Source: Pseudomonas sp. FP2309
GTDB lineage: Bacteria; Pseudomonadota; Gammaproteobacteria; Pseudomonadales; Pseudomonadaceae
NCBI RefSeq assembly: GCF_030687575.1
Contig: NZ_CP117439.1
Location: forward strand, 3,525,501-3,589,500
Direction: 5' to 3'
Length of the DNA stretch: 64,000 bases
Within the stretch, counting starts at the first letter, position 1. Every line of letters begins with the position of its first letter. Below are positions 37,613 through 40,044 of the stretch, one piece after another. The translations under genes and the position numbers were made by a program. Below the pieces are notes generated by a model, which worked only from the letters and a program-made list of their open reading frames with translations, ran no database searches and was not told the DNA's origin.

Positions 37613-38362
37613 TTAGACAGCCACCACATGGCCAGCCCAACCGTCACTGTCCAGTCGGGCAACCACCAGTGCCTCCCCCAGACCCGGTGCCGCGGCAAGC
37701 AAACGGCCATCCGCCGCCCAGATCGCGCTGCGACCGGCACACGCCCCCCCCCCCGAAGGACCACCATGGTTGGCCATCACGACCAGCAGGCCATGTTCAA
37801 TGGCATAGCCTTGCAGCAGTGCAGCGTCCGTGGCGTAACCGTTCTCACTGATCAGCACCCCGGCGGCGTAAACCGAGGCGCCCGCGTGCGCCGCAGCACG
37901 CGGATGACTGGCATGGCAAAAATCTGCACACACCGCCAGAGCAATACGTTGCGCCTCAAGTTCAAGGAGCGCGCCCCCTTGCCCGGCAACAAACGCCACC
38001 TCTTCACCGGCATGCAAGTGCTGCTTGGTGTAGACCGCCAGGGAGCCATCCGCCCCCAGCACCAAGGCGCCAATTGCTACGCCGGCGTCAGGCGCCAATC
38101 GGATCGGCATGCCCACCACGGCAGTCATGCGCAGCGCCCGCGCCATTTCCCGCAGTGGCGTCAACAGGCCATCGCCGGGGGCAATCGCCAGTGCCGCCGC
38201 CAGCGACGGTTCATAGCCCGTCAAAGACAACTCCGGAAATACCAACAGTTGCACGCCCTGCTCCCGTGCAGCCCGCATAAATACAAGGTGCCGCTGGATA
38301 TTGGCCGGCACATCGCCCGCAATTGAAACGGATTGAGCAGCAGCAAGGGTCAAGGCGGTCAT
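37613..38362 (-). CDS. carbon-nitrogen hydrolase (nitrilase superfamily)
   Basis: 249 residues. The Glu-Lys-Cys triad is visible: Glu in LLVFPELSLTGYE, Lys in VYTKQHLHAGEE and Cys in IALAVCADFCHASHP. It probably hydrolyses an amide (omega-amidase or amidohydrolase type) rather than a nitrile. The ATG at 38362 starts MTALTLAAAQS, the usual N-terminus of the family. It is coupled to the GNAT gene. Confidence 0.87.
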   Translation of the reverse strand: MTALTLAAAQSVSIAGDVPANIQRHLVFMRAAREQGVQLLVFPELSLTGYEPSLAAALAIAPGDGLLTPLREMARALRMTAVVGMPIRLAPDAGVAIGALVLGADGSLAVYTKQHLHAGEEVAFVAGQGGALLELEAQRIALAVCADFCHASHPRAAAHAGASVYAAGVLISENGYATDAALLQGYAIEHGLLVVMANHGGPSGGGACAGRSAIWAADGRLLAAAPGLGEALVVARLDSDGWAGHVVAV

Positions 38363-38508
38363 GGTCGCGTCCAAGCAATCAGTATCAAAGAATGAACAGC
38401 ATATCGACACGTACCCTATAGCGGTAAGTCCCTTCACCCAATAGAAATTACTGATTGAATCTCTGCGCGTGCCTCTAGTAAGCTCCACCGATCATTTGGA
38501 GACACACC

Positions 38509-38643
38509 ATGTTGCAACTCGTCCACACTCAGGTTTGCCTTGCTGCCAGCGCCTCGCGCTCGGTGCCAGCTGCCTGTGTGAACGGTTCGAGCGCAGCTGT
38601 CAGCTTTTATTTTGGGTATTGGTTTAGCCACTGGCGCGCCTGA
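38509..38643 (+). CDS. aromatic-rich leader peptide of the DAHP synthase attenuator
   Basis: 44-codon ORF, ATG at 38509 with GGAG eight bases upstream, ending TGA at 38643. Near its end it reads FYFGYWFSHW: three Phe, two Tyr and two Trp codons within ten codons. A strong intrinsic terminator begins 50 bases after the stop and a DAHP synthase gene follows. This is the classic arrangement of ribosome-mediated attenuation, with starvation for aromatic amino acids stalling the ribosome. I infer the mechanism from layout and composition. Confidence 0.8.
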   Translation: MLQLVHTQVCLAASASRSVPAACVNGSSAAVSFYFGYWFSHWRA

Positions 38644-38693
38644 TACTTGAAATCGGCGCCCACTACTCAAGGGGTCGCCTACCAGAGAAATCT

Positions 38694-38730
38694 AACCCCC
38701 GGTCGGCTCCCCGACCGGGGGTTTTGTTTT
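38694..38730 (+). terminator. attenuator terminator upstream of DAHP synthase
   Basis: Stem AACCCCCGGTCGG / CCGACCGGGGGTT with a 4-base loop, then TTGTTTTT. A competing pairing of GGGGT (38671-38675) with ACCCC (38695-38699) would disrupt the base of the stem and may serve in the antiterminator. Confidence 0.85.
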
Positions 38731-38773
38731 TCAGGCCTCTTAACTTTTGCAGAACACTCAAAGGAATCACGAC

Positions 38774-38926
38774 ATGAACTACGCCACCTATTACCGCTAC
38801 GACACCTCCACCGCATGGCGATTTAGCAAGCTCCGTTCGGGACAGCCTGCCGCCTCCGATCGGTCACCTATTGGTGGCAAGCCAACACACGTAGCCAGTA
38901 CGGCCAATTGTCGAACACCCCAGTAG
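38774..38926 (+). CDS. second, Tyr-rich leader ORF before DAHP synthase
   Basis: 50-codon ORF, ATG at 38774 with AAGGA upstream, TAG at 38924. The first 16 residues read NYATYYRYDTSTAWRF, with four Tyr, one Trp and one Phe codons; the remainder is unremarkable. It ends 47 bases before the synthase start. A short GCGGG / CCCGC hairpin (38936-38950) follows. It may be a second translational sensor of tyrosine supply. Confidence 0.6.
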   Translation: MNYATYYRYDTSTAWRFSKLRSGQPAASDRSPIGGKPTHVASTANCRTPQ

Positions 38927-38973
38927 GCCAAGCGCGCGGGAACAACCCGCCGCTTGTCCAGGAAGCCTTGAAT

Positions 38974-40044
38974 ATGAACTCCTCCGTCGCCGCCCTGCCC
39001 GTTTCGAACCTCATCAGTACCAATGAAGCCCTGACCCAACGCCTGCCCAGTGCTCTTGAGCTCAAGCATCAACTACCGCTCAGCCCGTTCCTCAACGAAC
39101 AGATCCATGCCCATCGCCAAGCCGTGCGCGCCATTCTCAATGGCGAAGATTCACGCTTGCTGGTGATTGTCGGCCCGTGTTCGATCCACGATCCGGAATC
39201 GGCCATGGAGTACGCGCGCAACCTGAAGAAGCTGGCGCTGGACGTCAGCGACCAGATGCTGTTGGTGATCCGTGCCTACGTCGAAAAACCACGCACCACC
39301 ATCGGCTGGAAAGGCCTGGCCTACGACCCGCACCTGGATGGCAGCGATGACATGGCCGCCGGGTTGACCCTGTCCCGCGAGCTGATGCGTGAAATGCTGC
39401 GCCTGGGCCTGCCGGTCGCCACTGAACTGCTGCAACCCATGGCCGCCGGCTACTTTGATGACCTGCTCAGTTGGGTGGCGATTGGCGCACGCACCACCGA
39501 GTCGCAGATCCACCGCGAAATGGCCAGTGGACTAGGCATGCCGGTGGGCTTCAAGAACGGTACCGACGGCGGCGTTGCGATTGCCTGTGACGCAATGCGC
39601 TCGGCGTCCCACCCGCACCGCCACTTCGGCGTCGACAGCCAGGGCCACCCGGCGATCATCCAGACTGCCGGCAACCCCGACACCCACTTGGTACTGCGCG
39701 GCGGTCACCGTGGGCCGAACTACGATGCCCAAAGCGTGGCGCAGGTGAAGCACGACCTGACCAAATCCAAAGTCGCACCGCGCATCATGGTCGACTGCAG
39801 CCATGCCAACAGCGGCAAGGATCCGTTGCGTCAGCCGGCAGTGTTCAACGACGTGCTGGAACAACGCCTGCAAGGCGACACCTCGCTGATCGGCATGATG
39901 CTCGAGAGCCACCTGTTCGAAGGCTGCCAACCCCTGAGCCCGTCGATGAAGTACGGCGTGTCGGTGACCGATGGTTGCCTGGGCTGGGCAGGTACCGAGC
40001 ACCTGTTGCGCAACGCCACCGAGCGTTTGCGTGCGCAAGGTTGA
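38974..40044 (+). CDS. aroF: 3-deoxy-7-phosphoheptulonate (DAHP) synthase, class I
   Basis: 356 residues. The metal and substrate motifs VIVGPCSIHDPESAMEYA, RAYVEKPRTTIGWKG, GFKNGTDG, RGGHRGPNYD and VDCSHANSGKD are all intact. First step of the shikimate pathway. The ATG at 38974 begins MNSSVAALPVSN. It is controlled by an upstream leader-peptide/terminator region, which suggests feedback by Phe, Tyr or Trp at transcription; which isozyme (Tyr- or Phe-type) I cannot settle. Confidence 0.95.
   Translation: MNSSVAALPVSNLISTNEALTQRLPSALELKHQLPLSPFLNEQIHAHRQAVRAILNGEDSRLLVIVGPCSIHDPESAMEYARNLKKLALDVSDQMLLVIRAYVEKPRTTIGWKGLAYDPHLDGSDDMAAGLTLSRELMREMLRLGLPVATELLQPMAAGYFDDLLSWVAIGARTTESQIHREMASGLGMPVGFKNGTDGGVAIACDAMRSASHPHRHFGVDSQGHPAIIQTAGNPDTHLVLRGGHRGPNYDAQSVAQVKHDLTKSKVAPRIMVDCSHANSGKDPLRQPAVFNDVLEQRLQGDTSLIGMMLESHLFEGCQPLSPSMKYGVSVTDGCLGWAGTEHLLRNATERLRAQG

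Follow-up and report, generated by a model that had tools for sequence, protein, structure and literature searches.

To date, tandem leader open reading frames (ORFs) are known from the Salmonella mgtCBR operon, whose mgtM and mgtP attenuators are called a singular example by the authors (PMC3641672), and from ermB, where two leader peptides act (PMC8274638); these papers and the others cited below were drawn on as excerpts. At genes for 3-deoxy-D-arabino-heptulosonate 7-phosphate (DAHP) synthase, single leaders have been proposed: one upstream ORF (uORFC-13-1 motif) precedes aroF in Acholeplasma, the same report describing an upstream ORF with a pseudoknot at odc1 (PMC8632094), and a putative aroF leader with Phe-Tyr-Phe is given for Corynebacterium glutamicum (PMC4046766). 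In Pseudomonas aeruginosa, P15 is a previously confirmed small RNA (sRNA) that was suggested to be a riboswitch from the synteny it shares with a thiamine pyrophosphate (TPP) riboswitch (PMC2527527). The locus described here lies in a 64,000-nt stretch of Pseudomonas sp. FP2309 (contig NZ_CP117439.1, positions 3,525,501–3,589,500, forward strand; hereafter the window, whose numbering is used throughout), in which two short leader ORFs, ORF1 and ORF2, precede the DAHP synthase gene aroF. With a probability of about 0.72, they act in series as a classical attenuator (ORF1, corresponding to P15) and a Tyr-rich second gate (ORF2). The anatomy and conservation of the locus, the ORF2 frame, the folds of the first gate, the covariation of one pseudoknot helix (S1) and the near-complete pairing of the other (S2) come from comparison and folding. 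The layout, proposed in an earlier note on the window, exceeds chance: relatives carry both ORFs, in frame, ahead of this gene, and the aromatic codons are restricted to the frames proposed.

ORF1 has the features first assigned to it. Its 44 codons follow a ribosome-binding site (GGAG, 38498–38501) and end in SFYFGYWFSHWRA (FYFGYWFSHWRA), and residues 33–42 read FYFGYWFSHW, i.e., seven aromatics in ten. The strong terminator noted after it has 13 pairs followed by TTTTGTTTTT, and the competing pairing is available, GGGGT (38671–38675) being able to pair with ACCCC (38695–38699). Both strands of 38000–39300 contain four terminator-like sites, against a mean of 1.3 in shuffled sequences. A cmscan search of the whole window placed a match to RF00627 across the 3′ end of ORF1 and the terminator; this Rfam entry is of type “Gene” and is described as “Pseudomonas sRNA P15”. 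No other Rfam family, T-box included, reached its gathering score in 38400–39000. Neither leader ORF matches an NCBIfam family at E ≤ 0.001, and the 18 database homologues of ORF1 are unnamed or hypothetical proteins.

The upstream region was compared across 211 sets (210 loci plus the window), which are not independent of one another, some of the loci L031–L110 sharing genomes with loci under G handles. A short aromatic-rich ORF of the GYWFS type precedes aroF in 206 of them as judged by a script pattern, which recovered none in L100, L106, L108, L109 and L110, and such ORFs extend to loci of Halomonas, Salinicola and Chromohalobacter. An in-frame ATG with a Shine-Dalgarno (SD)-like sequence, scored with a lenient pattern, is found for ORF1 in 203/211, the exact 12-mer TATTGGTTTAGC lies upstream of aroF in 189/211, and a terminator follows ORF1 in 206/211 (median ΔG −27.2 kcal/mol, with a median of 9 T in the next 10 nt). 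The ORF1 frame carries 5.8 aromatics per 8 codons, compared with 1.2 in the other frames (145 loci). The earlier note had named lack of conservation of the leader codons among relatives as grounds for giving up the proposal; the codons are conserved.

The P15 family itself follows the enzyme. It was detected in 136 of 149 congeneric genomes (E ≤ 0.001; 135 above the cut-off) and in none of the 14 control genomes, and in all 130 P15 loci examined (of the 136, window excluded) ORF1 stands before an AroF homologue. The 13 P15-negative genomes lack an ortholog of this DAHP synthase; all their matches to it are of 51–54% identity, comparable to the paralog in the window's own genome (52%). Among 274 genomes of the class, five P15 matches were obtained (E ≤ 0.001), including the one in the window's own genome. 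Two others (L232 and L234) keep both leaders and a third (L233) keeps ORF1 without the ORF2 motif. The match at L235, which shows neither an AroF homologue nor the motif, looks like a chance match. The 600 nt before the paralogous genes (15 loci, of which L228 is a gene fragment) contain neither TGGCGATTTA nor TATTGGTTTA, and no aromatic-rich or Tyr-rich ORF was found in them; the same 600-nt test recovers both ORFs before aroF.

P15 has been read differently, as a trans-acting sRNA or a riboswitch, which would make the ORFs incidental. Rfam describes an sRNA, and the excerpts of PMC2527527 point to a riboswitch from the TPP riboswitch synteny. The conservation of an aromatic frame with SD and ATG before the same enzyme at 130/130 loci examined, the absence of P15 from the 13 genomes without this enzyme, and alternative folds that track the position of the ribosome make this reading highly improbable. 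Detection of P15 as an sRNA fits a terminated leader RNA. With good support from conservation, the conserved terminator and the predicted stall-dependent alternative folds, P15 is best interpreted as a leader-peptide attenuator of aroF with Phe, Tyr and Trp as its signals, as had been suggested for the first leader, and the name sRNA then appears misleading.

Antiterminator pairings, for which the earlier note had suggested RNA folding as a check, are predicted in models of the stalled state. Fourteen loci were folded as RNA truncated before the 3′ arm of the terminator, 12 of which were usable. When a ribosome is placed on the Trp of the aromatic cluster or on the preceding Tyr, segment 1 (GGCGCGCC) pairs with GGCGCC of segment 2 in 12/12 usable loci, and the bases around and after segment 3 (GGGGTCGCC) are left for the terminator 5′ arm, forming an antiterminator. 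When the ribosome is placed at the ORF1 stop, segment 1 is covered, and segments 2 and 3 pair. The mean probability that the terminator 5′ arm is sequestered, taken over 155 distinct leaders, is 0.52 in the stalled state versus 0.25 at the stop, the stalled value being the higher in 139/155; for the window leader, the values are 0.63 and 0.16. The stalled value exceeds that of a control with the exposed segment shuffled in 111/155 and that of unoccupied RNA in 103/155.

Several of the folding results weigh against this interpretation. The shuffled control gives 0.45 and unoccupied RNA 0.44, so that much of the difference between the stalled and at-stop states reflects RNA length alone. In 16/155 leaders, e.g., L072, the stalled value is not higher. 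A ribosome three codons earlier, at the third Phe/Tyr, yields the 2:3 hairpin in 4/12 loci (the window, L041, L010 and L137), in which the 5′ arm is still partly sequestered. When the 3′ arm is included, the terminator is present in the minimum-energy fold in every state; antitermination must therefore be kinetic, decided during RNA synthesis. The direction of the predicted ORF1 fold switch is nevertheless that of starvation-induced read-through.

These features would combine as follows. One transcript, presumably starting at a promoter near 38455–38484, would carry both leader ORFs and aroF. When charged Phe-, Tyr- or Trp-tRNA is scarce, a ribosome would stall on FYFGYWF, leaving segment 1 free to pair with segment 2; segment 3 and the following bases would then pair with the terminator 5′ arm, and the polymerase would read through. 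When the amino acids are plentiful, a ribosome at the ORF1 stop would cover segment 1, segments 2 and 3 would pair, and the terminator would form. The short terminated leader RNA would be what was named sRNA P15, and the first gate would be expected to respond to aromatic starvation in vivo.

The second leader ORF claimed before the synthase, with its quoted NYATYYRYDTSTAWRF, is also present. Its motif TGGCGATTTA (codons TGG CGA TTT A) occurs exactly before aroF in 205/211 loci; it is missing from four loci of Salinicola (L087–L089 and L094), from L095, which has TGGCGCTTTA, and from L108, which has no upstream DNA. In the four Salinicola loci, ORF1 lies closer to aroF, giving a natural single-leader version of the locus. 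The pattern TGGCGATTTASC has one other match in the window's genome, inside a long ORF (L212), and TAYTGGTTTAGC has one, in a short gap between ORFs (L214).

The frame of ORF2 was analysed in the 206 loci with TGGCG(A/C)TTTA. An in-frame ATG and an SD-like sequence are present in 206/206, and the ORF2 stop precedes aroF in 205/206, the exception being L140, whose frame overruns the aroF start by 50 nt. CGAACA follows the motif in 191/206 loci, and the stop is TAG in 187/206. The distance from the motif to CGAACA is a multiple of three in 187/191 loci and takes 12 in-phase lengths of 39–99 nt, whereas the flanking distances are spread over the three phases (CGAACA to aroF start, 76/72/43; terminator to ORF2 ATG, 78/69/55). 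Spacing that is in phase within ORF2 and out of phase on its flanks is the mark of a translated frame; on this sequence pattern, ORF2 is judged real and translated. The 12 codons before its Trp contain a mean of 3.5 Tyr (147 distinct heads); the two other frames have 0.02 and 0.12, and shuffled sequences 0.43. The Tyr-rich layout with its motif ranges from Pseudomonas to Halomonas, and 78 database homologues of ORF2, unnamed or hypothetical, were retrieved at E ≤ 0.001.

In most loci, the ORF2 body is also conserved at synonymous sites. The Thr codon ACA near its end has a frequency of 0.98, compared with a usage of 0.04 in four window genes. The two conserved Arg codons CGA in ORF2 (38819–38821 and 38912–38914) are of a kind that makes up 7% of Arg codons in the same four genes; the codon columns were taken from loci selected by TGGCGATTTA, so that CGA and TTT of the motif stand at 100% there by construction.

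Two crossing helices fit the ORF2 body, CCGYUCGG/CCGANCGG (S1) and GCCGCC/GGUGGC (S2). Under a criterion of at least 6/8 S1 pairs and at least 5/6 S2 pairs, the pseudoknot can form at fixed columns in 169/206 loci and in 0/1030 trials at five shifted placements; 37 loci fail, among them L106, which has a full S1 and a shifted S2 strand. The earlier note had asked for an alignment check for covarying stems, and covariation is seen in helix S1. In a set of 102 sequences, 92.6% of cells are paired and 19 cells are changed on both sides, values that 0/500 shuffles reach for either. This set comprises 101 distinct loci and the window, the window row being cut 12 nt late and lacking the motif, and its selection required the S1 3′ strand to begin in a CCG-like manner, a filter favouring three of the S1 pairs. 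The outer pair of S1 is seen as CG, GU, UA, AU and GC, and S1 of the window has one T.T mismatch. Changes in S2 are mostly one-sided (GU to AU in 11); a change of both partners occurs once, in L077 (GCCATC/GATGGC). Two results count against the pseudoknot: sliding the 3′ partners by +3 raises the covariation score from 0.061 to 0.082, but with only 53% of cells paired, and a nested RNAalifold structure keeps most of S1 and gives GGUGGC another weak partner. A pseudoknot in ORF2 is thus judged likely, with S1 appearing firmer than S2 in these models. After ORF2, the GC hairpin has a median ΔG of −18.5 and a median z of −2.0, with z < −2 in 50% of 135 distinct loci, 12 further loci with too short a gap being left out of these statistics.

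The same RNA could be the binding site of a protein or another ligand, the motif, the pseudoknot and CGAACAC being its parts and translation being secondary. The synonymous-site conservation, of which ACA is an example, and the covarying pseudoknot would fit this, and a protein ligand has been proposed for the LEU element (PMC1262725). The frame of ORF2 is nonetheless kept and Tyr-rich, and in 36/206 loci ORF2 and the motif persist although the pseudoknot is absent, which makes such a site quite unlikely as the explanation.

Several possible modes of action of ORF2 were considered and dropped. Sequestration of the aroF SD finds no support, predicted access, in folding without pseudoknots, changing in no consistent way over five ribosome positions (164 loci). 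Pairing of the LEU type, between the Tyr run and the aroF SD, gives a mean z of −0.97 with the motif included (z < −2 in 22/153) and of +0.86 with the motif left out (z < −2 in 0/146). A search for a fixed downstream partner of TGGCGATTTA gave two weak optima, at 26–34 and 126–134 nt, both GC-rich. The RNAalifold pairing GGCGAUU/GGUGGC leaves the compensatory change in L077 unexplained. A programmed frameshift at the motif was set aside by reasoning: the pseudoknot spacing fits, but CGA TTT A is not a slippery heptamer and the next codon is variable.

Of the doubled leader proposed in the earlier note, the layout stands: the second ORF is Tyr-rich, and the arrangement is kept in frame and extends to Halomonas relatives. 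Attenuation by ORF2 goes beyond the evidence, there being no terminator and no consistent SD effect. The findings that weigh against a second gate can be gathered here. There is no intrinsic terminator between ORF2 and aroF, the GC hairpin lacking a T tract, and mean aroF SD access over the five ribosome positions is 0.38, 0.36, 0.35, 0.33 and 0.30 in folding without pseudoknots. ORF1 stands without ORF2 in the four Salinicola loci, the ORF2 of L234 contains a single Tyr, and the 36 loci that keep ORF2 without the pseudoknot belong to P. citronellolis, Stutzerimonas, Halopseudomonas and others.

Some of these points would suit a simpler role, in which only ORF1/P15 senses amino acids and the Tyr codons of ORF2 are non-sensing. 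Once the terminator has been read through, ORF2 would hold ribosomes on the leader and thereby stabilise the mRNA, shield it from Rho or provide coupling to aroF translation. ORF2 without a terminator or a consistent SD switch, the single Tyr of L234, and the ORF2 stop 7 nt before the aroF ATG in Halomonas loci L098, L100 and L107, as for coupling, all agree with it. The strong Tyr enrichment across lineages whose ORF2 heads differ in length, and the near-invariant TGGCGATTTA with the pseudoknot, imply more than any open frame would need, and the simpler role is considered rather unlikely.

ORF2 is most likely a second gate that is read by the ribosome and acts on the polymerase, on Rho or on aroF translation after read-through. 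CGA is a slow codon, and when TTT occupies the A site, 8 nt remain before S1. A ribosome slowed on the Tyr/Trp/Phe or CGA codons of ORF2 would thus stand right before the pseudoknot, while an unhindered one would melt it and end at the stop beside the hairpin that precedes the aroF SD. ORF2 would then be regulatory and, whichever direction its effect takes, would act beyond the ORF1 terminator. As a tentative extension, ORF2 may be a new type of sensing gate, i.e., a Tyr-rich leader whose output passes through TGG-CGA-TTT-A about 8 nt before a pseudoknot without a terminator, in series with a Phe/Tyr/Trp attenuator; two separate readings of aromatic aminoacyl-tRNA could then determine how much of the first enzyme is made.

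The features of the locus are listed in Table 1. AGTAAGCT is found at the promoter-like position in 15/21 printed loci (window counted); a strict sigma-70 scan gave 0 sites and did not recover the promoter-like TTGAAT-18-TAAGCT.

Table 1. Positions of the leader features and of aroF in the window.
Feature	Position	Strand	Basis
Promoter-like TTGAAT / TAAGCT, 18-nt spacer	38455–38460 and 38479–38484	+	Direct reading
ORF1, first leader peptide MLQLVHTQVCLAASASRSVPAACVNGSSAAVSFYFGYWFSHWRA, 44 codons	38509–38643	+	Direct reading, ORF list
Rfam RF00627 (P15) match	38601–38721	+	109.5 bits, gathering score 70, E 1.7e-21
Aromatic codon cluster FYFGYWFSHW, containing TATTGGTTTAGC (38617–38628)	38605–38634	+	
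Segment 1, GGCGCGCC	38633–38640	+	Folding of stalled-state RNA
Segment 2, GGCGCCC; partner, segment 1 or 3	38655–38661	+	Folding
Segment 3, GGGGTCGCC	38671–38679	+	Folding; 2:3 hairpin also in the Rfam P15 structure
Intrinsic terminator: 5′ arm 38694–38706, 3′ arm 38711–38723, U tract to 38732	38694–38732	+	
ORF2, second leader peptide MNYATYYRYDTSTAWRFSKLRSGQPAASDRSPIGGKPTHVASTANCRTPQ, 50 codons, AAGGAA upstream	38774–38926	+	
Conserved nucleotide motif TGGCGATTTA(GC), codons TGG CGA TTT A..	38816–38827	+	
H-type pseudoknot in ORF2: S1 38833–38840/38856–38863, S2 38849–38854/38873–38878	38833–38878	+	Predicted
Conserved ORF2 end, CGA ACA CCC CAG TAG	38912–38926	+	
GC hairpin lacking a T tract, 3′ of the ORF2 stop and 5′ of the aroF SD	38930–38955	+	Window fold
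DAHP synthase, aroF/G/H class, 356 aa, ATG 38974, SD AGGA 38960–38963	38974–40044	+	

The aroF product is assigned to DAHP synthase by NCBIfam aroFGH TIGR00034 (440.9 bits against a cut-off of 173.2), and its nearest solved relative is the Tyr-sensitive enzyme of E. coli (6agm, E 5.4e-115). A Gly at a position linked to Tyr inhibition is the same in the paralog and thus does not settle which of the two enzymes Tyr inhibits. Upper-gamma Proteobacteria characteristically have one Trp-inhibited and one Tyr-inhibited enzyme of this class (PMC1173090). The stretch before the paralogous gene (L230 in the window's own genome, C1:1843099–1844148, minus strand; L215–L227 elsewhere) holds a conserved 5′ region of its own, TTACGCGCTAAGGTTC ... 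CCGCCACACGGGGA.CGCTGGCGGCCGGCACCCGTGACCTGA ... ATG, in many genomes. This region contains no ORF rich in aromatic codons and may represent a further RNA element. The Rfam family P14, a Pseudomonas “sRNA”, lies at L230:535–677 (minus strand), directly before a small lipoprotein-like ORF (246–497), and may likewise represent a 5′ leader and not a free sRNA. In the window, a divergent carbon-nitrogen hydrolase ORF of the nitrilase family (37613–38488, minus strand) adjoins the leader; this ORF probably begins near 38361 and not at the listed GTG.

If this reading is correct, an orphan Rfam “sRNA” that is widespread in Pseudomonas gains a function, all three end products could control entry into the aromatic pathway through RNA, and a further natural case of tandem leader ORFs, both serving one pathway, is added. 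ORF2, with a pseudoknot and no terminator, would offer a clean test case for leader control of a gene without a terminator hairpin. The earlier note had met no description of the layout. This holds in so far as the literature matches listed, in which subscription papers are thinly covered, include nothing on tandem leaders before an amino acid biosynthesis gene; it does not hold for tandem leader ORFs as such, which are known from mgtCBR (PMC3641672) and ermB (PMC8274638). Within the same scope, P15 is nowhere treated as an attenuator among the matches listed, the excerpts of a premature-terminator study (PMC2965389) do not mention P15, and Table 7 of PMC1173090, on attenuators before tyrA operons, includes no Pseudomonas.

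Collectively, the first leader is of a known kind, and the novelty lies in the tandem arrangement with a conserved, terminator-free second leader. Like the trp, phe and his attenuators, ORF1 is a short ORF with an SD, a cluster of end-product codons, predicted mutually exclusive pairings and an intrinsic terminator; it differs in combining Phe, Tyr and Trp codons within a single peptide, in preceding the gene of the shared first enzyme, and in being followed by a second leader ORF. RF00627 (P15) is the same element as the 3′ end of ORF1 with its terminator, filed as an sRNA and read here as an attenuator. The Acholeplasma (PMC8632094) and C. glutamicum (PMC4046766) loci, set beside this one by their descriptions, are likewise cases in which leader-peptide control has been proposed for DAHP synthase, through Phe codon(s) or Phe-Tyr-Phe, but one leader ORF is described for each. 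The LEU element of actinobacterial leuA resembles ORF2 in combining a leader ORF rich in end-product codons, a pseudoknot and a biosynthesis gene; there, however, the run of end-product codons base-pairs with the leuA SD, a pairing unsupported here, and the excerpts describe no upstream attenuator (PMC1262725). As at mgtCBR, two short ORFs lie in one leader, their translation here being supported by comparative evidence; in the excerpts on mgtCBR, the second ORF is likewise rich in the codons of one amino acid, and the leader structures are unlike intrinsic terminators, as with ORF2 (PMC3641672). The signals at mgtCBR are ATP and proline, and the operon is non-biosynthetic (PMC3641672), whereas the two leaders of the present locus both suggest aromatic amino acids as signals, and an intrinsic terminator follows ORF1.

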